From positions 1-28,273 of IMG/VR virus record IMGVR_UViG_3300029309_000259: DNA of 28,273 bases; one strand, given 5' to 3'. Below, piece after piece: positions 94-16,458 of this stretch. The notes under the pieces were generated by a model. It was not told where the DNA came from, searched no databases, and saw only the letters and a program-made list of their open reading frames with translations. The translations under genes and the position numbers were made by a program. How positions within the stretch are numbered: the first letter of the stretch is position 1; the number at the start of each line of letters is the position of its first letter. This stretch comes from a virus.

Positions 94-558
94 TCAACCT
101 TTATTCCACATTTCGTAAAATTCATTAACTATCGTAGATAGCTTTCCCACCTTTTTTTTATCCCCAAACCAATCAATTTGTTTTTTAGATAATTTTTTAT
201 TATCCAATAATTTAAGCAATATATTCTTATATCCCCTACCTAATCTATCTCCAATATATTTCACACACCCCATAACCAATTCTCGCCGTACATTGTGAGA
301 GTAATCAAATCGTGAACTTTTATCCTTGATAATGTATGTCGTGGCTTTTACACCCACCAATCCAGATTTGTTATAATCCCCTTGTAGCTTGTCCAGAACT
401 TTGTAATCATAAAGCATGATAGTATCTGTTAGCAGTAACGTATCTAGGGTTGTCTGATCAACTACCCTCATTCTTACTTTATTAGACTTCCCTACAAACT
501 CTGGCTTGATTACCTTATGGTCTCGTATATAGATTTTTTTAGAATGGTGCTTTATCAT
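94..558 (-). CDS. Hypothetical phage protein, 154 aa
   Basis: I do not recognise this gene. It encodes a lysine-rich, basic protein of 154 residues with no signal peptide, membrane segment or clear catalytic motif. The middle looks beta-rich (a run of Val/Thr/Leu/Asp around residues 28-55) and the C-terminal third looks helical and ends near an aromatic YEMW. It is the last gene of the leftward replication unit. Its ATG lies 20 bases inside the end of the primase-helicase gene, which suggests translational coupling; I see no strong Shine-Dalgarno sequence in front of it. Its place next to the helicase suggests a nucleic-acid role, but that is inference from context only. Confidence 0.65.
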   Translation of the reverse strand: MIKHHSKKIYIRDHKVIKPEFVGKSNKVRMRVVDQTTLDTLLLTDTIMLYDYKVLDKLQGDYNKSGLVGVKATTYIIKDKSSRFDYSHNVRRELVMGCVKYIGDRLGRGYKNILLKLLDNKKLSKKQIDWFGDKKKVGKLSTIVNEFYEMWNKG

Positions 559-2311
559 CTTTTATAATTTGTGGTGCTAGAAATTTATCTCTTTCGTAAA
601 ACTCACTTGTTGGAGAATAAGCAGTAGTGTTCTTATTAAATAACAAGCTACAATCTCCAATAGCACCTACCCAAGAAAATCTACATTTCCAAACTATAAT
701 TTCACTTACATTAGTCTGAGATGGGTTTGGTCTATGAACAGTAAGACCGACATCAGCTTTTGCAAACCATGATGCACTTCCAGAAATATCATACCCCTTT
801 GGTGGTGGTACTGTTCCGTCATCTTTTCTCATCATCTTTGTTGGGTGTGCAACAAACCAAATATGTATGCTATGTGCTTGAGCAAAAACCCTCAGCTTTG
901 TTAACATCTCAGATATCCAATCTGTTTCTGACATGTCTTGATCTCTTGCTATGTAGTTGTAAGGGTCTATAATTATCCCTCTTACCCCATGTCTCATAAC
1001 TGCAATCTTCATTCTCGTGATTATGCTATCTAAAGATGATAAACTTCCATCTGCTTGATACAAAAAGCTAAAATGTTTTTGCACAAAATCCTTGCCCTCT
1101 TTCAACTCCTGTTTGGACATACGGGTGTATTCATCTCCAAAAAATGGTTTTTCTAAATACTTACTAATTAATTTTGAAATATGTATTCTTGGTTCATTTT
1201 CAAAAGAACAAATACCAAACTTCCATTGTTTTTCTTTTGCTATGTTTACCATTATCTGATCAATAAATTCAGATTTACCAGATGATGGGTGTCCAGTAAC
1301 CACAGATAGCTGACCCTCTACAATGGTGTATATTGCGTCTACCTCTTTGTAACCAGTAGAAACACCAGTTCCAATGCCCTTATTGTATATATCATCAACC
1401 TCTTCATAAAAATGTTCTGCGTCATACAACCCACTTACTGGATAAGGAATAGGTCTCGTTGATATCTCATCTAATTTTTCTACACCAAACTTTGTTAAAA
1501 CTTCGTTGGCATCTTTACAACCATCTGGGTATTCTATTTTCCAACACTTGTCTTTTCCAACTCTTCTGGCTATCTCTTCAGCCATAGCTTGACCAGATTT
1601 ATCATTGTCTAATGCCAAGATAATTTTATTGCACTTATCTAGCTGAGACTTTGCGTTCCAAATAAATCTAAACTTTGTGTCCTCTTGTGGGTCTATTTTG
1701 CCATCTGTAACTTTCATTACAGCACCATGAGGAATAGATATAACTTGCTTTAAACCTATTTCTTTAAAACTTAAACAATCTATTTCTCCCTCACAAATGA
1801 TAACCCAATCTTTTTCATCAATGCTATCAATGTTATAAAAGTTTAAAGCAGAACCATGACTTGAAAATCCTTTTTGTGGAAAACTTCTAAGCTTTGCATA
1901 CTCCATTTTTCCTTGATTAAAATAAGGAAAAACAATGCAATTCTCTTCTTTGTTAGTGCCAGATATAAATTGTTTAGTAGATTTTAAACCAGAGTTTATA
2001 GCAGTTTCTTTTGATATTCCCCTCGTTTTCAAATAACTCACTACGTTATCATCAATATCATTCCATTTTTTTTCAATGCTCTGGCTCAAAGGTTCTCTCC
2101 GTATTAATTTAAAATTATCATGTTTTATTTTTATTGCTCCATCTTGTGAGCAATGCCAACAATTATAGAAAATGCTATTCTCTTCTACTTTTAATGATAA
2201 AGTTTTTATGTGTTTCTTTTTTCTAAGGTGGGTGCAGAAAGGACAGTTTACTTTGTGCTGACCATTCCCTAATCTCAAGGCATCATGCCTTATGCTTTCG
2301 CTTACTTCCAT
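539..2311 (-). CDS. Bifunctional DNA primase-helicase (T7 gp4-like)
   Basis: Replicative primase and 5'-3' helicase in one chain, expected to act as a hexameric ring at the fork. From the ATG at 2311 it is 590 residues. An N-terminal zinc-binding domain has CPFC (C23, C26) and CWHC (C51, C54). A TOPRIM primase domain follows, with CEGE (E174) and LDNDKSG (D235, D237). The RecA/DnaB-type helicase domain has Walker A GHPSSGKS (340-347) and a Walker B-like GIIIDPYNY (D449). The length is close to T7 gp4 (about 566). I chose the ATG at 2311 because GGAGAG lies just upstream and because a more upstream in-frame ATG at 2356 falls inside the spacer of a good promoter. The gene overlaps the next leftward gene by 20 bases. 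Confidence 0.95.
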   Translation of the reverse strand: MEVSESIRHDALRLGNGQHKVNCPFCTHLRKKKHIKTLSLKVEENSIFYNCWHCSQDGAIKIKHDNFKLIRREPLSQSIEKKWNDIDDNVVSYLKTRGISKETAINSGLKSTKQFISGTNKEENCIVFPYFNQGKMEYAKLRSFPQKGFSSHGSALNFYNIDSIDEKDWVIICEGEIDCLSFKEIGLKQVISIPHGAVMKVTDGKIDPQEDTKFRFIWNAKSQLDKCNKIILALDNDKSGQAMAEEIARRVGKDKCWKIEYPDGCKDANEVLTKFGVEKLDEISTRPIPYPVSGLYDAEHFYEEVDDIYNKGIGTGVSTGYKEVDAIYTIVEGQLSVVTGHPSSGKSEFIDQIMVNIAKEKQWKFGICSFENEPRIHISKLISKYLEKPFFGDEYTRMSKQELKEGKDFVQKHFSFLYQADGSLSSLDSIITRMKIAVMRHGVRGIIIDPYNYIARDQDMSETDWISEMLTKLRVFAQAHSIHIWFVAHPTKMMRKDDGTVPPPKGYDISGSASWFAKADVGLTVHRPNPSQTNVSEIIVWKCRFSWVGAIGDCSLLFNKNTTAYSPTSEFYERDKFLAPQIIKDDKAPF

Positions 2312-2344: not shown

Positions 2345-2372
2345 ATCATAAAACAATCCATAATCAAGTCAA
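2345..2372 (-). promoter_or_regulatory. Sigma70-like promoter for the primase-helicase gene
   Basis: On the minus strand there is TTGACT (2367-2372), a 16-base spacer, then TATGAT (2345-2350), one mismatch from consensus in each box. Transcription would start near 2338 and leave an untranslated leader of about 27 bases before the ATG at 2311. The upstream end abuts and slightly overlaps the near-palindrome at 2371-2390, so a protein bound there could block or help RNA polymerase at the -35 box. Confidence 0.7.
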
Positions 2373-2479: not shown

Positions 2480-2562
2480 ACTAGTAACTAGTATACTAGT
2501 ATATAACTAGTATAATATATTATAAATATATTATTAAACTAGTATACTAGTTTTATACTAGT
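2480..2562. repeat. Cluster of seven ACTAGT palindromes around an AT-only core
   Basis: ACTAGT starts at 2480, 2487, 2495, 2506, 2538, 2546 and 2557. The spacings 8 then 11 occur twice (2487-2495-2506 and 2538-2546-2557), so a three-site module is repeated after 51 bases, close to five helical turns. The gap between the modules (2512-2537) is entirely A and T and is itself nearly palindromic. The last copy contains the stop codon of the gene ending at 2558. This fits either an iteron/unwinding origin or an operator array for the neighbouring promoters. The rest of the 2312-2557 spacer holds the helicase promoter and one operator-like site, and no convincing gene. Confidence 0.6.
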
Positions 2563-2887
2563 GATACCTTGATGAATGGTTTTGAATTAATCTTTTTAAT
2601 TTTTCGCCTAAATGTCTGGCAATAATTCTTTTACTTATTAAAATTTCGTAAATAGATTTTCTTACATTTTCTGTATTAAGGTCTGCTAAGTCACAAACCT
2701 TTGAGAAATCATCTCCTCTAATCCAGTTGCCTATTCTAACTTTCTCTTTTGTCGTGCCTAGATAACTGTCAGAAATCGCTTGGCAGACTACAAACCTCCA
2801 TAGGCGTAACTCTGATGTGAGTTCTGGGTTGTTCCCTATCAATTCCCCAGAATATATGTTTCTGTTTAACTTGTCTGTCATTAACAT
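2558..2887 (-). CDS. Small helical phage protein (LWRxVxxQAI type), 109 aa
   Basis: The protein has a central block, roughly residues 27-90, with ELRLWRFVVCQAISD, then NWIRGDDFSKVCDLADL and VRKSIYEIL. I recognise this pattern from many phage genomes as a short, uncharacterised family placed among replication or packaging genes (aromatic W plus a C-x2-A-x-L-containing helix). No enzymatic residues are evident. The start at 2887 has AAGGAAAG a few bases upstream; ATG at 2881 is an alternative. The gene begins inside the RusA gene, and the 119 overlapping bases are read in two frames, both encoding conserved-looking protein. It is followed at once by the ACTAGT cluster. Confidence 0.75.
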   Translation of the reverse strand: MLMTDKLNRNIYSGELIGNNPELTSELRLWRFVVCQAISDSYLGTTKEKVRIGNWIRGDDFSKVCDLADLNTENVRKSIYEILISKRIIARHLGEKLKRLIQNHSSRYH

Positions 2888-3161
2888 ATATCTTTCCTTG
2901 CATACAATCTAGTATCACGCTTTCATCTAAATCTGGTCTCCTTGATGCATAGTATATTTTTATCTCAACTTTAACATCAAGTTCAATAAGTTTTTCTAAT
3001 TGTGGGCATTGTTCTGCAAATGTTTTTACATAATCCCTAGCTTTTTGGGATTTTATAACACCCAATCTTTTTCCAAATCTTACAATTTTTCTGCTATTGC
3101 TCTTACTAGCTGGCTCTCCGTTAACAATAAATTTAGTTGCTTTATATATTTTATTTGACAT
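2769..3161 (-). CDS. rusA: RusA-family Holliday junction resolvase
   Basis: Probable structure-specific endonuclease that resolves branched DNA made during phage replication and recombination. The 130-residue protein has the family's acidic core: RRPDLDES (D77, D79) followed 16 residues later by VNDRQV (D95), then the usual C-terminal strands. E. coli RusA has Asp70, Asp72 and Asp91 in matching positions and is 120 residues long. One oddity is that the Lys that follows the second Asp by four residues in E. coli (K76) is Ile83 here. I chose the ATG at 3161 because translation then starts at MSNKIYKATKF, the expected N-terminal strand; an in-frame ATG at 3242 would add an unlikely hydrophobic tail that crosses the divergent promoter. 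It is divergent from the gene at 3210. Confidence 0.88.
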   Translation of the reverse strand: MSNKIYKATKFIVNGEPASKSNSRKIVRFGKRLGVIKSQKARDYVKTFAEQCPQLEKLIELDVKVEIKIYYASRRPDLDESVILDCMQGKIYVNDRQVKQKHIFWGIDREQPRTHIRVTPMEVCSLPSDF

Positions 3162-3209: not shown

Positions 3210-4169
3210 ATGAAGATTACCAATAAATTTGGTTTGCCACAACCTTTTGTTGATTTTATAAAAAATGACAAATATAGCAAAGGTAGTGCAGATATATCAG
3301 TTACTTCGTTAATTGATAGTCCTAGGGTTTCTTTAATGAGACAAAAACACTCAGATGACATAGAGATAGACGCAGTTGACCAGATATGGTCGCTATTTGG
3401 AACTTCAGTTCATGCTATATTAGAAAGATCAGAAGATACAGTTTACTCAGAAACAGAAGCAAGATTATATGCCAATGTCAATGGTTGGAATTTATCTGGT
3501 GCAATAGACAGACAAGAAATAAACAAAGAAGATGGAAGTGTTAATTTAATTGATTACAAAGTAACTTCTGTTTGGTCTGTCATATTTGGTAAAATAGAAT
3601 GGGAAAGACAGTTAAACTGTTATGCCTATTTGTGTGAGCAAAACTACCATGAAGTTTTTACTCCATTCTCAAAAGAAAAGAAACAAGTCAATAAATTAAA
3701 TATTTGTGCAATCTTAAGAGATTGGAATAGAAGAGAAGTTGGTCAGAAAGATAATTATCCCAAGACACCAGTAGTCATGGTTGATATACCTTTATGGTCT
3801 CGTGAACAACGCAAAAAGTATGTTGAGGAAAGAATCTCGCTACATCAAGATGCTCAAATAAATTATGATCTTTATAATAAATTGCCCTTATGCTCAGATG
3901 AAGAGAGATGGAAAAAAGATGATAAATGGGCAGTTAGGAAGAAAGCTCAAAAAAGAGCATTAAGAGTTTTAGACACAAAGCTAGAAGCTATTGATTATGT
4001 TGAATGGCATAAAAAAACTAATACTGCATACATGCCTAAATATACTGGTGGTTATGAAATAGATTTTCGCCAAGGCGAATATAATAGGTGCAAGGGTAAC
4101 TATTGTTCCGTTGCAGATTTTTGTCAACAATACAACAAAGGAGAGGAAAATGGCAAAGAAGAAAACTAA
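3210..4169 (+). CDS. RecB/Cas4-like PD-(D/E)XK exonuclease
   Basis: Predicted DNA exonuclease of 319 residues. Motifs in order are GTSVHAILE (G64, H68, E72), SGAID (D100), LIDYK (D115, K117) and a QLNCYAYL helix (Q134 and Y138), the arrangement found in RecB-type and Cas4 nucleases. Near the C terminus CKGNYCSVADFC (C294, C299, C305) resembles the Cys cluster that holds an iron-sulphur centre in Cas4 and AddB. The usual first Cys near the N terminus is not evident, so cluster binding is uncertain. It is followed by a likely annealing protein, so together they would form a two-part phage recombination system in which ends are resected and then annealed. It leads the rightward operon. Confidence 0.85.
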   Translation: MKITNKFGLPQPFVDFIKNDKYSKGSADISVTSLIDSPRVSLMRQKHSDDIEIDAVDQIWSLFGTSVHAILERSEDTVYSETEARLYANVNGWNLSGAIDRQEINKEDGSVNLIDYKVTSVWSVIFGKIEWERQLNCYAYLCEQNYHEVFTPFSKEKKQVNKLNICAILRDWNRREVGQKDNYPKTPVVMVDIPLWSREQRKKYVEERISLHQDAQINYDLYNKLPLCSDEERWKKDDKWAVRKKAQKRALRVLDTKLEAIDYVEWHKKTNTAYMPKYTGGYEIDFRQGEYNRCKGNYCSVADFCQQYNKGEENGKEEN

Positions 4170-8165: not shown

Positions 8166-8400
8166 AACCAACAATTCCATACTAGTTTTAGTTATCCAAG
8201 AGACGTATTTATACGTCTCGCTTATCGCCTAGGAATTGGGGGTTTTACTAGCTCCGTCTAATTACGCAGGTTTGGCTGCTTTAAGAAACAACAATTAAAT
8301 CATAAACTTTTAGTGATTTGAGAATCGCAGCTCACGCGGCTAACTGCATGGAGAACTAAAATCCTAAACTTCTAGCGTGTATAAAAGTTAATGTTAACTT
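8166..8400. other. Convergent intergenic region, candidate structured RNA
   Basis: This is the only long non-coding stretch between two convergent units. It holds a perfect 8-bp hairpin with a TTTA loop (8200-8219, GAGACGTA/TACGTCTC), without a U-tract on either strand. From 8214 to 8353 the sequence is about 44% G+C by hand count, clearly above its surroundings, as structured RNAs often are in AT-rich genomes. GCAG/CTGC and AAATCA/TGATTT arms can pair further along. On the plus strand AATTACGCAGGTTTGGCTGC would read NYAGLAA, like a tmRNA tag, but no tRNA-like half is present. No good protein-coding frame is seen. Confidence 0.35.
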
Positions 8401-8402
8401 TT
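8383..8402 (-). promoter_or_regulatory. Near-palindromic site, copy 3, at the convergent junction
   Basis: On the minus strand the core AAGTTAACATTAACTT (8385-8400) is extended to perfect 9-base arms around CA. It overlaps the stop codon of the giant late gene. Read leftward it ends in TTTT and could form a weak A/T hairpin, so a terminator role is an alternative to an operator role. The plus strand has ATCCTAAACTT 13 bases before AAGTTAATG, the same pair of words as near 2371-2402 but with 11 more bases between them, one helical turn. Confidence 0.45.
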
Positions 8403-11400
8403 AACTAGCTTCTCTAAAACCAGCCGACCTCATGAGAATGAGCCCTCTTCTCATCAAATCGTTTATTCTGTCCCTTCTAATACGAATTAAGTTCTTTTTC
8501 ATTGTTTCGTCTATTCTAGGGTTTCTCTCTATCTCTTTAATCTGCCGTAACAATCTGTTTCTAGCGTTATCTACAGCTTTCAGTCTTGGAACTATAGCTA
8601 ATTGTTCTTTATTGTCTTCTAGTAACTCTTTTATCTTTTCCATATCACCTGACTTCCTAGCTATGTCATATCTAGCTAGTATCGTGAATAACGCTTTTCT
8701 ATTCTCTAAATAATTAGAAACATCTTCTCTTTCACTTGGAGATGCTACTACTTTCCTTGCAAATGGAATGGCTCTAGTTACTGATCCCTGAAAATCACCG
8801 TTGATAGCGTCATAAATATTAGCTGGTGTTTCAAGTGATCTTTGTACAAACCTACCAACACCACCAGTGCTATAATCAAACCAAAACTCCATAACATCTG
8901 GAGATAAATCTATAAATCCACTCTCTACCTCATCTCCTCCTGTAATCGTATTTAGCGTATTTGCAATACTTTTTGCTATTCCACTTGTGCTTGACCAATA
9001 TGCCTGACTATTTGGTGTAGGTCTTGATGCAAACTGAGGTGATTCTTTAAAGATTGGGTCTCCTTTGTAGTCTTCGTTGATAGCCACACTCACAAATGGG
9101 TCCAGAACTGTAGGTGCAGCCAAGTTATAGAAGTTATCAAATCCTCCAAATGGACTTAAACTTTCAAATGCAGTTCCAAATATAGTCCTACTTGCTTCGC
9201 CGGGTGTGTACTCGCCCCTTGCTGCGCGGGACATTGCCCTTCCTAAATTAACTGCTATGTTCATTCCATAAGCTAAAGGTATAGTAATAAACTTATCATC
9301 TGCTAAACCAAAGGTTGGTAATACAAAATTATGTTCTAGTATGTATCTTGGTAACTCATCATAATCTTTAATGCCATCTTCATCCTCATCTCCAGATAAC
9401 ATCGAGTTAAATGCATCTTGCATCAACCCGTACACAACTAGTCCAGCCCATACTTTTCTAACACGCTTTGATTTAACCGCAGCATTAATAAGCGCCATAG
9501 ACCCCTGCAATGACGCATTATAAAATAAATACCAAGAATTTAAGAATTGTTTTTGCTCTCCACCTTTTGCAAAATTTACAGTTATATTCCTTGCCGCTTG
9601 TGCTGCGCGGGCAGGAGTAACGCCACGCTTTACTAAAGCAGTGTAAGTAGCAACACGAACACCATTTTCAACTGCTGTGTTATAATCATCTAAAAATTTA
9701 CCTAATTTTTTAAACCCATTCTTTACAAGGCCAAGTTTGCCTTTCTTATTATTATCTGCAACATCACTTAATATTCCATTTATCCTATTCATTTGATCTT
9801 GCAAATCATTCATCTGATTAGTTGCGTTCTTACCACCTGCATTTACAAATTTTAAATATTCTTTTGCCCAAAACCCATCAGTGTCTCCATCACGAAGATT
9901 CTTTGCAATACCCTTTACAGCAGGAAGTGCGCCCTTTAGAACCTCAGACGTAAGTCCTTTTTCATCATATTGTTGAACATTTACACCGGCAGTTGCCAAA
10001 TCCCTAGCAAAGTTTGGTATAACAAATGATGGATTATAAGTTGTGTTAATATTAGATAAATATCTGTTCAACTTACCAAGGGCTCGCGTAAAAGAGCCCA
10101 CACTATCTGGTGTCATCATCCCTTTCATAGCTCTTGCTATTCTAGGGTCAGTAAATGTTACAAAAACATTTTGACCGTTCTCTCTTACAGTCAAAACCTT
10201 ATCTTTCATGTCTTGAGGAATATCATCTCTGTCAAAATATACATGACTAATATGTTGCATTTCTTTCTGTAAGTTAACATTAACTTCTGTCTCTCCGTCT
10301 GCAACGCCTCTAACAAGCTGTAAATATGATAAACCAACCTTATTTCTTTCAGAGTCTGCTATAGATTTATTGTTCTGAGCAAATAAAGATGCAACTATAT
10401 CACTAGCATAAAAATCTTGTAACTCGCCTTCTTCTGATCTTATTCTTCCTTTTGCTTTTCTATCTGGCTTTTTTAATGCACCAAATAAGTTTTGTATTAC
10501 AAAGTTTTCCTGCCTTACGTCACCTTCGTTATCTGCATTTATTTCTTGCTCAAAATCTAAATCACCTCTTAAAGGAACATAGTTCTCATATATTTCAGTA
10601 TATTCTTTTCCATCTTTATCAACAAATCTTTCAGGTATCAGTCCACCTTGCCTTCTTTCTTGATTTGTGTTTTGTACTATTTGTTGGGCAAAAGATATTA
10701 TGTTATTTAATTTTGTGCTTTCTGTATCTGATAAAGTTTTTGACCAATCTAAAATTCTATTAGCTTCGTTGGTATGCATTCCTGAAGCTATATCATTTCC
10801 TAGGTAATCGTTTCTTTCTTTCGCATGCGAAGCATAAAGGATGGCATCTGCTAATGCCATTTTTTTACTAGGATATCTGCCATCAGTAGCAGTTTTGTAA
10901 AAATTAGAAAGGTTTGAAAGTTCATTTAACTTATCTTGGCTTACATTTAAAGAGTCAATTACTTTAATCATAGGCTCAAAAAATTCTTTTTGTGACTTGT
11001 CTACTTTTGCACCGGCAACTCCATGAAACAACTCTTCTTGCATATAAGTATCTATAGAATCAGATATATTAAGACCTTTATCTCTCAAGCCATCCATCAA
11101 TGCACCTATCGGCAAAAATCTATCTTGTATTTGAATTAATAAATCTTGAGACTTTCTTCTTAATGTTTCTTCATCTACTCTACCTGCGGTAAAAACATAT
11201 CCTATTTTAGTTAAAATTTTTGATAGATTGTCGTATCTTATCTTTTGTCTTGTTTGGTTAATGCCTTCATTAACAACCTCACTTGTAGGAGTTGCTTGTT
11301 GATTCATGATTGGAGCACTAATACTAGAATAACTATATTTCTTTTCTGAAGGATAAGCTGTTCTTATAACATAAACATCTGACTTCATTGGAAGTGATGT

Positions 11401-14400
11401 TGGGTCTAGCGGCGTTCCTTTTGGCACAAATTTTAATGGCATAATTAACTGATAATTTCTTGGGCCATTATGTGGAGTTTTATTAAACTCTAATCTTATT
11501 CCTGTGCTAGGCGTATCAACAAGGTTAAATCCATTATTAGTGCCTTTTGTTTGTTGATAAAATGCCTTAGCTAAATTATCATAGAGCAGTTTGCGTAAAT
11601 TATTATATTTAAATATTTCTAATAATTCTTGCTCATGACTTTTTCCTGTCTCATCTCTGATAGCAGTAATATGTTTTTCTCCATATCCACTGTAATCGTT
11701 TTCTGCAACTTTCTCATGATCTCCCTCTACATATAAAACAGGTATTGTCCTACCTCTAGCTTGAATCATTCCATAAATATATTTCCTAGCATTGCCTTCA
11801 TCCGCATATATATTGCTCTTTAGTTCTTGAGGTATCGGTATCATTGAGAATTGTTGTTCCTCAATGGTTTCGTTAATAGCTCTTATCTCTTCTTCTGTAG
11901 ATTCGCTTAGAAGATCATGACCTTCTAATTCTTCTGTGGTGTACTCTCTTTTTTGGTGTCCAACATTTTTTTCAGGCTCTCCAGTACTTCTAACAGCTTG
12001 TTGTCCGGTATCTGGTTTACCAAGGCGTCTGTCTCTGTCTGCCGCGGGAAGTGCTTGTCCAATGGTTTCTTCATCTCTACCTCTCTTTCTTAAAAATTCT
12101 ACAGCCGCATCTACATAGTCATTGTCAGATCCTTGGCCCGGAGCAACACCTATGCTTTTAAATAAACGTTTTTCTCCATACCAAAATACAGCTTGAGCAT
12201 CTGCTATCGTAATAGTCCTATTGCTTCTTCTTGGTGTGTTATTATACTCGCTTACAACTTGTCTTATAATACTTCTAAGCGTTTCTCTTTCTCTGCCTCC
12301 TCTTGGTGACTCTGCTAATTGAGGATTAATATTTCTTGCTAAAGATGCAGTAGCCAATATAAATTCTGATTTCTCAGGAAGACCATCTTGACCTAATTTT
12401 GAAAAGTCTCTTTGATAAACTCTATCTACAGTCAAAGAAATAGCATCAACATCATCTGGATTTTTTAACAAGTCAACACCATTTTCCTCAATTGCTTGGG
12501 ACAATCTTGACTTATCATCATCTGTGCCAGATTCTATAACTTTTTGAACAGCCTCTTTAACTCTGTTTCTTGCTTTAACCATAGTTTTTTCTGTTGGTAT
12601 AATAAATGGATGACCTGTAATTCTATTTACAAATCTCATAAACCATCTATCCATTGTTAGATAAGAAAAATCTCCAGCTAAATTTTGATAAAAAGAACCA
12701 ATTTTACTTCCAAATATGAATGAAGCAGGAACTTCAGTGCCAACATTCTCAGTTGTAATTTTTGCTTTTAATTGTTTTAAAATAGGTAAATTATTTATTT
12801 CACCTACTGTAGTTTTTGTATCTAAGAATGTCTTTATCTCAGTATCAGACATCTTCATATTGCTTTTCATTAAGTTATATACTTTAAAAGACTTAATCAT
12901 TCCTGATGCTTGTTTGCCGTATCCTTTTTCTAAAAGAAGACCAGTTCTTTTCCAGTTTTCAAATTGCTCTGCTAAAGCTTGGTTCTGTTCTTTTACAGCT
13001 GCTCCGTTAGAAGATATTGCTATAATTAAATTAAACACAGACTCTGCATTCTTATCTGTTTTGATCTCTGGGTATTCTAAAGCATATAATTTCTTAGCTT
13101 GATCAAATGTCTCTTTGTACCATCCTATAGCAGAATCATCTGCATCAACATATGCATCTAACTCCATCTTCATGGCTTCTACTATAAGCTTTCTATCTTC
13201 TGGGTCATTTATATTAAGAGTTACACCACCTCTTTCCGCTTGAATCTTTTTTATTGCCTCAACCATTTTAACACTGCCAATTTTAGCAATCTGTTCATAT
13301 TGACCTTTATTTTCGCCTTCAGTTATAAATTTGTCTAATGCAGTTAAATCTTTTGGATTTATTCCTTTAATTGATGAATATAAAAATTCTTCTTTAGGAG
13401 CAAATGTTGGATTTTTAGCCATTACAAGCGGACCCACTTGTATGACTCTCTCAGCAGACATCACTGGTTGTGTAGTTGTTCTGTCATAAAAATATGAATG
13501 TCTCTCTGGGTCAAAGCCTACTTGCACAAAGGATGGGTCGTTTAAAGCGGATTGAGCCTCTGTAAAAGCTGTTTCTGGAGATACCTTTTGTAGTTCACCC
13601 TCTATTGTAGCAAAAGGCCCCTTTTCTGCGCCCTGAGCTATTCTAAACCCAATTCTTTGAGCGCCCTCTGATGGTCTTAATGTAGCATTATTTACTACCG
13701 CTACGCTTTCATGTGACAAAACTTTATTTGATGCATCATGAATAGTAGGAACCCATACGCCTTTACCAGTATATGCTGGTATATCTAGTCTTAATTTTAC
13801 TGTAGTTCCATCAGGTATATCATTTATTTTATTTAATTTTTCTACTTTATTTTTTGCTAAAGCACCTTTCATTTGCTCTACTGTTGCAGGCTCTGGCACT
13901 GTAGTATATGGAACAATAGGCTTTACTTTATTAACTAATTTATCATAAGTATCGTAATCTATTTCTCCATTTGCAAGCTTCTTTGCGGCCTCTTGTAAGT
14001 CATCAACTCTCTTTGTTACATCTTTAAATGTTTGCTTTATTCTTTCAATATTACCTTTTTCTGGCTCTATATAACCAGCAACAATACCAGCAGTACTATA
14101 TTTTTTTTCGCTTGTTATATTCTGTTGTCTTTCTCTTCTTCCTATTTGTCTTTCTATATCTGTTGTGCCTATGTCTTTAAATATGTCTCCAGCACTATTA
14201 AATCCAACCTCTTTATGTGCTGTAAATAAACCTTTAATAAAGCTAAGAATTTTTTGAAATATTGTTTTAGTCTTAGGTTTAAGCTCAAGTTTACCATCAG
14301 CAAAATCACGATACATTTCTGCAACAGCTTCCTCTAATTTTTTTGAGTCAGTAAGCTTTTCATTCATTCTTACCGATCTATCTAAATAAGTATACTTTCT

Positions 14401-16458
14401 TGTAACAGGCTTTCCATCTATCATCATGACGTATTTGGTTTCTTTTGCAGCATCTGTTAAAGTTTTCCATTCTGCTTCGGTAAAAACACCCATCTCTTTC
14501 AATGCGTGAATTATCTCATGATTCATAACTGAACCAAGTCTTTGCTGAAGATCTGCTTCTGATAGACTTGGGTCATATATTTCCATAGCTAAAGCTATTG
14601 TTTTATTACCAAATACACCTTCGTTTACTTCTCCTGATGCAACTTGTTGTTGTGGGTCAAGACCATCTTTAGTTACAATATTGCGAAAGTCTAAAGCAAT
14701 ATCACCCAAACCAATCGCTGTTAACTTTTCTCTTAAAGCCTTTTGAACTTTAAATTCTTTAGATTTATATTCATCTGTCTTTATATTTGCATTGTTAAAG
14801 GCTGTTTTAGCTATGATAGGGGGTACTATTTGGCTTGCCTTGACTGATTCTGTGCCAAGCTTCTTTTTCGCCTCTCCTGAAAGTGTGCGCGCTTGTTTAG
14901 ATATGCCATCATATGCCAATGTTAAGTCTGTAATTTGACCTTCTAAATCAGAAACATCTTCTTTTGTTTCTAGTTTTTGTTTTCTTTGCTTATGAAGAGC
15001 ATCCATTTCTTTCATTATAGTTTTTGCTCTAGCTTTTAACTGTTCTGCTTTTAAACCTATATCTTGAGCCATTGTTGTGGTTGATACAAATTTGCCTTTT
15101 TTCTTTTTTATAACTCCATTTTGTAAAAGCTTATCTCTAATTCTGTTTATCTCAGATTGTTTAATTGTTTTTTGTTGTTTTGTTTTAAGAGCCTTTCTTG
15201 CAGAGCCCTGATTAAACACACCCTCTAACTTTGTTTTATCTTTAACTTTATTATAATTTACATCAGCAGGATCTGCGTCTAAATCCCTTGCTCTATTAAG
15301 AGCAACATCTAAATCATCTTGACTTAATGTTTCATCTGTAACAACAACATCTGGTCTGTTGTCCATGACTTCTTGCTTTATATGATCTGGTAACAAAGAT
15401 AGAGTTAAAAACTTCGCTTCTGGATCAGATGAATCTTCTATAACCTTCCCTTGTGTTGTGGGTGATGGCAAACCTCTGTTCAAAAAATTTTGTGCATTTT
15501 GATTCATAACTCCAGCAGATAAACCAAGAGTTCTTTGATCCTGATCTAGTTGTGTAGTTTTAGAGTTATCATCTTCTTTGTTCTTGTCTCCACCAATAAT
15601 ATTACCTGTACTAGAAACTGTACCACCAATAAGACCAGCAGCCGCAGCTACTTCCTTGTATTCGTTTATCGCCTCTTCACTTGTTATAGATTTACCAGCT
15701 TGATATCTTTCTAATACTTGTTGGCCTATTTCTGTAGGGACCTCAGTTACAATACCCTTACCAACACCTTTTACACCTCTTGTAAATATTCCTCCACCAG
15801 ATAAAGCTTTACCTGTAAATCCACTTACTAAAAATCTATCTGCTATAAAATCTAAAGCAGCCTGTGGAAGAGCGGTAATAAAAGCGGCTCCTTCAGATAT
15901 CTCAAATCTATTACCAGCTTGAACTTCTTCTTTCTGAGCCTCTCTGTTACCGCCGTAAAAAAACGGTAAATTAACACCAATACCACCTATTATAGAGCCC
16001 GGAACACCACCAACAAGAAATCCTGCACCAGCACCAGCTAATGTGCTTCCTAACTGCGGAACTTGTTCTCCTAATGTTGATGCTGCCCAATCAAAAAAGC
16101 TACCTGTGTCCTTTATATCATCTAATCTTTTTGCATATTCTGCATCTGACTCAAGTTCTTTTCTATTATTTTCTACAATTTCAGTTCCGTAATCTTTGAC
16201 ATCTTCAAGACCTGTAACTTTACCTACACCCTCTATCGCAGAGCCATAAAGCATTTGAATATTATCTATGCCTCTGCCTATACCTTTTGTAAAAAGATTA
16301 CCATCATCTCCGGGAGTTTCTTCTGGTAAATCTTGTTTACCAATGTTTGCCATATAATTAGATATAGCAAGAGATTCTTCTTCTGTTGGAGTATCTCCGT
16401 CTATTTCAAATGGGTATTCTTGACCATCTATTTGGCTTATGGCTCTGTATAAACCCAT
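8401..16458 (-). CDS. Giant polyvalent internal virion protein (2685 aa)
   Basis: Very large multi-domain protein, probably packed in the virion and ejected with the DNA. Residues about 137-170 are glycine-rich and hydrophobic (membrane segment). A metallopeptidase-like region has HEIIH (H647, E648, H651) and LEEAVAE (E714) as a possible third ligand. A polyvalent-protein domain with QVGFDPERHSYFYDR begins near 979; another with GSKIGSFYQNLAGD and DRWFMR lies near 1250-1285. Residues 1538-1709 carry GYGEKHITAIRDETG, like phage barnase/EndoU-type toxin nucleases. A C-terminal LPD38-like part starts near NPSFVIPNFARDL (about 2139). SEKKYS occurs twice and EEQQFS once at domain junctions. It is last in the late operon and shares a TAATG with the preceding gene. 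The domain calls are by recall of patterns. Confidence 0.88.
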   Translation of the reverse strand: MGLYRAISQIDGQEYPFEIDGDTPTEEESLAISNYMANIGKQDLPEETPGDDGNLFTKGIGRGIDNIQMLYGSAIEGVGKVTGLEDVKDYGTEIVENNRKELESDAEYAKRLDDIKDTGSFFDWAASTLGEQVPQLGSTLAGAGAGFLVGGVPGSIIGGIGVNLPFFYGGNREAQKEEVQAGNRFEISEGAAFITALPQAALDFIADRFLVSGFTGKALSGGGIFTRGVKGVGKGIVTEVPTEIGQQVLERYQAGKSITSEEAINEYKEVAAAAGLIGGTVSSTGNIIGGDKNKEDDNSKTTQLDQDQRTLGLSAGVMNQNAQNFLNRGLPSPTTQGKVIEDSSDPEAKFLTLSLLPDHIKQEVMDNRPDVVVTDETLSQDDLDVALNRARDLDADPADVNYNKVKDKTKLEGVFNQGSARKALKTKQQKTIKQSEINRIRDKLLQNGVIKKKKGKFVSTTTMAQDIGLKAEQLKARAKTIMKEMDALHKQRKQKLETKEDVSDLEGQITDLTLAYDGISKQARTLSGEAKKKLGTESVKASQIVPPIIAKTAFNNANIKTDEYKSKEFKVQKALREKLTAIGLGDIALDFRNIVTKDGLDPQQQVASGEVNEGVFGNKTIALAMEIYDPSLSEADLQQRLGSVMNHEIIHALKEMGVFTEAEWKTLTDAAKETKYVMMIDGKPVTRKYTYLDRSVRMNEKLTDSKKLEEAVAEMYRDFADGKLELKPKTKTIFQKILSFIKGLFTAHKEVGFNSAGDIFKDIGTTDIERQIGRRERQQNITSEKKYSTAGIVAGYIEPEKGNIERIKQTFKDVTKRVDDLQEAAKKLANGEIDYDTYDKLVNKVKPIVPYTTVPEPATVEQMKGALAKNKVEKLNKINDIPDGTTVKLRLDIPAYTGKGVWVPTIHDASNKVLSHESVAVVNNATLRPSEGAQRIGFRIAQGAEKGPFATIEGELQKVSPETAFTEAQSALNDPSFVQVGFDPERHSYFYDRTTTQPVMSAERVIQVGPLVMAKNPTFAPKEEFLYSSIKGINPKDLTALDKFITEGENKGQYEQIAKIGSVKMVEAIKKIQAERGGVTLNINDPEDRKLIVEAMKMELDAYVDADDSAIGWYKETFDQAKKLYALEYPEIKTDKNAESVFNLIIAISSNGAAVKEQNQALAEQFENWKRTGLLLEKGYGKQASGMIKSFKVYNLMKSNMKMSDTEIKTFLDTKTTVGEINNLPILKQLKAKITTENVGTEVPASFIFGSKIGSFYQNLAGDFSYLTMDRWFMRFVNRITGHPFIIPTEKTMVKARNRVKEAVQKVIESGTDDDKSRLSQAIEENGVDLLKNPDDVDAISLTVDRVYQRDFSKLGQDGLPEKSEFILATASLARNINPQLAESPRGGRERETLRSIIRQVVSEYNNTPRRSNRTITIADAQAVFWYGEKRLFKSIGVAPGQGSDNDYVDAAVEFLRKRGRDEETIGQALPAADRDRRLGKPDTGQQAVRSTGEPEKNVGHQKREYTTEELEGHDLLSESTEEEIRAINETIEEQQFSMIPIPQELKSNIYADEGNARKYIYGMIQARGRTIPVLYVEGDHEKVAENDYSGYGEKHITAIRDETGKSHEQELLEIFKYNNLRKLLYDNLAKAFYQQTKGTNNGFNLVDTPSTGIRLEFNKTPHNGPRNYQLIMPLKFVPKGTPLDPTSLPMKSDVYVIRTAYPSEKKYSYSSISAPIMNQQATPTSEVVNEGINQTRQKIRYDNLSKILTKIGYVFTAGRVDEETLRRKSQDLLIQIQDRFLPIGALMDGLRDKGLNISDSIDTYMQEELFHGVAGAKVDKSQKEFFEPMIKVIDSLNVSQDKLNELSNLSNFYKTATDGRYPSKKMALADAILYASHAKERNDYLGNDIASGMHTNEANRILDWSKTLSDTESTKLNNIISFAQQIVQNTNQERRQGGLIPERFVDKDGKEYTEIYENYVPLRGDLDFEQEINADNEGDVRQENFVIQNLFGALKKPDRKAKGRIRSEEGELQDFYASDIVASLFAQNNKSIADSERNKVGLSYLQLVRGVADGETEVNVNLQKEMQHISHVYFDRDDIPQDMKDKVLTVRENGQNVFVTFTDPRIARAMKGMMTPDSVGSFTRALGKLNRYLSNINTTYNPSFVIPNFARDLATAGVNVQQYDEKGLTSEVLKGALPAVKGIAKNLRDGDTDGFWAKEYLKFVNAGGKNATNQMNDLQDQMNRINGILSDVADNNKKGKLGLVKNGFKKLGKFLDDYNTAVENGVRVATYTALVKRGVTPARAAQAARNITVNFAKGGEQKQFLNSWYLFYNASLQGSMALINAAVKSKRVRKVWAGLVVYGLMQDAFNSMLSGDEDEDGIKDYDELPRYILEHNFVLPTFGLADDKFITIPLAYGMNIAVNLGRAMSRAARGEYTPGEASRTIFGTAFESLSPFGGFDNFYNLAAPTVLDPFVSVAINEDYKGDPIFKESPQFASRPTPNSQAYWSSTSGIAKSIANTLNTITGGDEVESGFIDLSPDVMEFWFDYSTGGVGRFVQRSLETPANIYDAINGDFQGSVTRAIPFARKVVASPSEREDVSNYLENRKALFTILARYDIARKSGDMEKIKELLEDNKEQLAIVPRLKAVDNARNRLLRQIKEIERNPRIDETMKKNLIRIRRDRINDLMRRGLILMRSAGFREAS
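10271..10286 (+). promoter_or_regulatory. Near-palindromic site, copy 4, inside the giant gene
   Basis: An exact copy of AAGTTAACATTAACTT lies within the coding sequence of the 2685-residue protein. It is not next to a visible promoter. Its exact identity to the copies at 2373 and 8385 makes chance unlikely, but an intragenic site could be a roadblock, a protein-nucleation site or coincidence from codon use (the protein reads EVNVNL here). Confidence 0.35.

Follow-up and report, generated by a model that had tools for sequence, protein, structure and literature searches.

Replication of phage lambda starts at a single origin, in which iterons and an AT-rich region lie inside the O gene. For most marine tailed phages, the start of DNA replication is, to our knowledge, untested. 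The closest described arrangement to the one reported here is that of Bacillus phage SPP1, in which oriL and oriR lie 12-13 kb apart, each combines repeats with an AT-rich unwinding element, and the initiator gp38 is bound to both (PMC6316719, PMC3485210). SPP1 oriL sits inside gene 38, upstream of helicase gene 40, and oriR in the late region, where a fork stall has been proposed, with a resolvase, an exonuclease and an annealing protein leading to concatemers (PMC6316719, PMC3485210). Here, we analyse an uncultivated marine tailed phage, a virus of bacteria, from a 28,545-base virus record that is nearly all covered by the stretch under study (28,273 nucleotides, hereafter the window). A cluster of ACTAGT palindromes (site A) lies upstream of its primase-helicase gene, and relatives carry a second cluster at the terminase genes (site B).

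The phage is distantly related to the HTVC023P-type pelagiphages, with which its family has in common a related TerL (52-56% identity) and a genome of roughly 60 kb. Unlike the ACTAGT phages, these pelagiphages have a DNA polymerase A gene and primase and helicase genes annotated apart, and the ACTAGT array was not found in the parts of their genomes that were read. In Pelagibacter phage HTVC023P, the A/T-rich DNA immediately preceding terS contains seven TAGGAA/TTCCTA repeats (L178 11622-11770), and L177 (13632-13780) and L179 (16041-16168) likewise have clusters of repeats in the vicinity of terS. Searches of the literature yielded nothing relevant on ACTAGT operators or on pelagiphage origins and palindromes, and a host search in the genome collection returned only metagenome bins of mixed phyla.

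An ACTAGT array upstream of the primase-helicase gene

The exact ACTAGT copies of site A start at 2480, 2487, 2495, 2506, 2538, 2546 and 2557, with spacings of 7, 8, 11, 32, 8 and 11 bp. The first-pass annotation, made from the sequence alone, had described seven copies within 83 bases, forming two 8+11 modules displaced by 51 bp, and a 26-base centre made only of A and T, all of which we recovered at the coordinates of Table 1. This clustering is far beyond chance: in none of 1000 order-2 Markov simulations of the window did an 83-bp stretch exceed three copies, and a Markov chain trained on the array itself reached seven copies once in 50,000. The window as a whole contains 10 copies (7.7 +/- 2.8 expected), a chance number, so that only the cluster is unusual; outside it, the copy at 8181 had been pointed out correctly among "one or two", but there are three, the others being at 9437 and 21117. 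A 28-nt A/T run at 2511-2538 is the longest of the record, and its most AT-rich 80 bp are also at site A. The near-palindromic character ascribed to the A/T centre is not above chance (1152 of 5000 shuffles were equally good), and the two modules are direct, not mirrored.

The identical 8/11 phasing of the modules is real in the window but not conserved in relatives. In a set of 44 distinct arrays, 10 bp, approximately one helical turn, is the most frequent spacing (60/215), and 8 bp is rare (7/215). The proposed likeness to iterons plus an unwinding element thus stands as far as repeats adjoining an AT-rich element are concerned, but fails for regular spacing, as distances vary between 6 and 57 bp (mode 10). 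Many arrays contain only short AT-only runs, the longest in each measuring 9-28 bp.

On the minus strand, RusA, a 109-residue protein (P109), the array, a sigma-70-like promoter and the primase-helicase follow one another, and the exonuclease and RAD52-like genes run divergently from RusA, P109 and primase. The array had been placed between the helicase and RusA genes; the helicase side is correct, but the neighbour on the right is the P109 gene, which overlaps RusA and whose TAG stop codon is part of the last ACTAGT. The overlap of approximately 119 bases, in different frames, is kept in relatives. Promoters were assigned by consensus match, and that of the primase gene lies approximately 107 bp downstream of the array, with a similar site at the same position in relatives.

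The product of the second divergent gene has no Pfam or PHROG match; its top fold matches are to RAD52, with others to Sak, Mgm101 and Red-beta, and since the RAD52 match reaches E 0.006 (Foldseek) and Z 8.0 at best, a RAD52-like annealing protein is a probable, not a certain, assignment from the structure model.

Several further features of the window were recorded. Near-identical, inverse copies of AAGTTAATGTTAACTT occur in both non-coding spacers (approximately 2369-2386 and 8385-8400), with GTTAAC at 2375 and 8393, and similar GTTAA-TTAAC palindromes adjoin array A in many relatives. A single minus-strand open reading frame of 2685 residues fills 8401-16458; one of 3202 residues occupies the matching place in G002.

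Table 1. Features at and around site A (window coordinates)
Feature	Position	Strand	Basis
Primase-helicase (Toprim + DnaB_C)	539..2311	-	Domain match
Sigma-70-like promoter of primase gene, TTGACT-16-TATGAT	2345..2372	-	Consensus match
Site A, seven ACTAGT palindromes around AT-only core	2480..2562	.	Sequence; position conserved in relatives
AT-only core, candidate unwinding element	2512..2537	.	A/T run and AT ranking
P109, small all-helical protein, 109 aa	2558..2887	-	ORF, AlphaFold2
RusA-type Holliday junction resolvase	2769..3161	-	Family match
PD-(D/E)XK exonuclease	3210..4169	+	Family match
Probable RAD52-like single-strand annealing protein, 260 aa	4413..5195	+	Predicted structure, fold matches

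A second array at the terminase genes

Relatives were collected as 56 loci from a primase search, and the DNA upstream of the primase gene was compared. ACTAGT arrays occupy the equivalent position in relatives whose primase identity is as low as about 66-67%, and even in the deep relative G041, with a primase only 31% identical, RusA, a P109 homologue and a degenerate ACTAGT/ACCAGT array precede the primase gene. Other clades keep P109 and A/T-rich DNA with different repeats at site A, namely ACTGGT/ACCAGT variants in G009, GGTTATAACC units in L032-L034 and pure A/T repeats in L038-L041. The first-pass annotation had named loss of the array from relatives with the same flanking genes as evidence against its proposal; such relatives exist, but most of them have another repeat or a long A/T-only run there.

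Records long enough to reach it carry site B, comprising 6-12 ACTAGT copies between terS and the ORF68-terL operon and ending about 10-20 bp before the Shine-Dalgarno region of ORF68. In all ACTAGT genomes extending that far, its position is between terS and terL, and in the nine records that include both sites it is 10.1-11.7 kb downstream of A; G041, with array A and without array B, is the exception. Two of the genomes with site B have end repeats (77 and 52 bp) and look complete. For the phage of the window, site B is predicted to lie off the left end of the contig. When 2.9 million viral contigs were scanned blindly for ACTAGTTATAACTAGT and ACTAGTATATACTAGT, the loci read contained 111 clusters (A, 43; B, 62; elsewhere, 6); these counts are not independent, because the motif changes represent few evolutionary events. 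One scan match, on the 83.7-kb contig L063, was discarded as an unrelated chance match. In an unrelated group of phages, an ACTAGT/ATTAGTA array immediately precedes a small gene (L345 4855-4941, L349 28-75), in an operon with a DnaG-type primase further along.

In a sister clade, ACTAGT is replaced by GGTTATAACCATCTATAT at both A and B and nowhere else. Across the entire collection, a 20-mer from this repeat occurs in nine contigs, at A in four of them and at B in five; as the two sites are on different contigs, we infer their linkage within one genome. Relative to the genes downstream, the unit is inverted at B, an arrangement that speaks for one factor recognising double-stranded DNA. From this joint change of motif, one trans-acting factor very probably reads both sites, the simplest reading being that the motif and its binding protein changed together.

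Base composition of the two sites

Both sites contain an AT-rich region and usually rank with the most AT-rich parts of the genome, also when ACTAGT is missing. When 80-bp segments were ranked by A+T in a set in which several records are near-duplicates or short, site A came first in G000, G002, G004, G006, G008, G010, G011, G012, G028, G032, G033, G034, G037 and G045, and site B in G014, G015, G016, G017, G018, G025, G030 and G031. Uninterrupted A/T runs of 86-93 bp mark site A in G011, G012, G032, G033 and G037. Within the ACTAGT phages B is weaker (rank 3-39) than A; G001, a complete genome, shows a weak effect (ranks 11 and 39), and G019 and G041 show a weak one or none. The GC-skew analysis proposed by the first-pass annotation did not discriminate: the deepest minimum falls at the terS divergence, not at A, and skew is undecisive as an origin map because it follows gene direction. 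At silent sites, where informative positions are too few to remove this effect, no switch is seen at A.

P109, a candidate binder

The AlphaFold2 model of P109 comprises five helices and is confident (pLDDT about 93-96 for residues 31-100); helices 59-67 and 72-84 in this model have lengths similar to those of a helix-turn-helix. P109 is encoded in 23 of the 25 records compared, window included. It is missing together with the array in G018 and G019, and a homologue is present together with the array in G041; G018 keeps the AT-rich site B. Searches for P109 found no family above noise in Pfam, PHROGs or NCBIfam and no PDB relative by sequence, all Foldseek matches had E above 1, and the best Z in structure comparison, 7.6, is within the range of common helical bundles. 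The presumed recognition helix, the second of the pair, varies among phages with a common ACTAGT, so that the proposed binder role rests on adjacency and co-occurrence. Gene presence across ACTAGT-plus versus ACTAGT-minus genomes singled out no protein exclusive to the ACTAGT phages.

Twin origin or shared operator

We give about an even chance to the reading, by analogy with SPP1, that A and B form a twin replication origin with P109 as its candidate initiator. Site A would be the primary replication origin of the phage family, and site B, at terS/terL, a second origin-like site, the two corresponding to oriL and oriR. The repeated palindromes would be bound by an oligomer of a phage protein, P109 most probably, which would open the adjacent AT-only DNA; the neighbouring primase-helicase would then load at the opened site A, and host polymerase would copy the DNA. 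The same protein on B might start a second fork or stall an incoming one, and RusA, the exonuclease and the annealing protein may convert theta replication into concatemers, packaged beside B. No recognised family A, B or III-alpha polymerase was found in G001, G002, G003 and G041, in which the fused primase-helicase is present, and host polymerase is therefore probably recruited.

This twin origin is favoured because the parts resemble those of SPP1 in an analogous layout. As in SPP1, there are two distant sites, each with repeats and an AT-rich region, one of them by the (here candidate) initiator gene and upstream of the helicase gene, the other in the late region; a resolvase, an exonuclease and an annealing protein are encoded, and host polymerase is used, probably so in the present family. 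By contrast, the repeats of the present family are palindromic hexamers of changing sequence, its second site is at terS/terL, and its candidate protein is small. Origins of the lambda type likewise combine repeats and AT-rich DNA beside an initiator (here a candidate) and replication genes, but their iterons are longer and inside the initiator gene, whereas the present array comes after its gene and is duplicated at a distance. Points against the twin origin are the silent-site skew, the want of a family or fold match for P109, its variable helix, the position of array B before a Shine-Dalgarno sequence, the AT-rich site B of G018, in which P109 is missing, the absence of array B from G041 and the short AT-only runs of many arrays. 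The original proposal of an origin or operator array is partly supported: the conserved site by the primase-helicase, the AT-richness and a twin layout like that of the proven SPP1 origins give it an origin-like anatomy, but the 8/11 phasing is unconserved, the core palindrome is a matter of chance, and the array at the terminase genes was unforeseen and would suit an operator as well.

The main rival to the twin origin, appreciably less likely in our judgement, is that A and B are operator arrays through which one phage regulator switches on or off, in coordination, the primase operon and the late operon (ORF68, terL, portal). Each array is placed 5' of an operon, B abuts a Shine-Dalgarno region, A abuts the primase start codon in deep relatives, and the joint motif change is compatible with any single regulator. 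In the window's clade, however, about 90-110 bp separate A from the primase promoter, which it precedes and does not overlap, and this distance varies between clades; the A/T-only tracts of 86-93 bp exceed the needs of an operator, and no regulator was identified.

That the arrays are TerS recognition sites, with a packaging signal at B and a copy at A, is improbable. Pac sites are usually near terS, which suits the constant position of B, but A adjoins replication genes and has no evident packaging role, TerS falls to 30-41% identity among phages with a common ACTAGT, and G041 has only A. We consider it more improbable still that the array works through a DNA hairpin or cruciform structure and not via a motif-binding protein: folding of single-stranded A and B is better than that of shuffled sequences (z -2.9 to -5.0), yet repeats of a self-complementary hexamer fold automatically, the window's modules are direct and its core palindrome is at the chance level, and this function was rejected. 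Binding of a host factor such as the Trp repressor, whose consensus in the E. coli trp operator contains ACTAGT repeats 8 bp apart, is hardly credible: two ACTAGTATACTAGT units match that layout in this one window, yet 10 bp prevails over 8 bp in relatives, the motif differs between clades, P109 has no similarity to TrpR, and a Pfam search of eight phages found no TrpR family protein.

Returning to the twin origin, a further and more tentative step, which we think rather doubtful, is that P109 founds a hitherto unrecognised family of very small phage initiators binding to twin origins, its target motif having been exchanged at both sites together on more than one occasion. If so, the P109 family would be a natural record of initiator-origin co-evolution. 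With two small sequence-defined sites, an adjacent candidate protein and natural motif swaps, these phages are a directly testable family, and, if the twin-origin reading is true, SPP1-like twin origins would not be confined to phages of Firmicutes.
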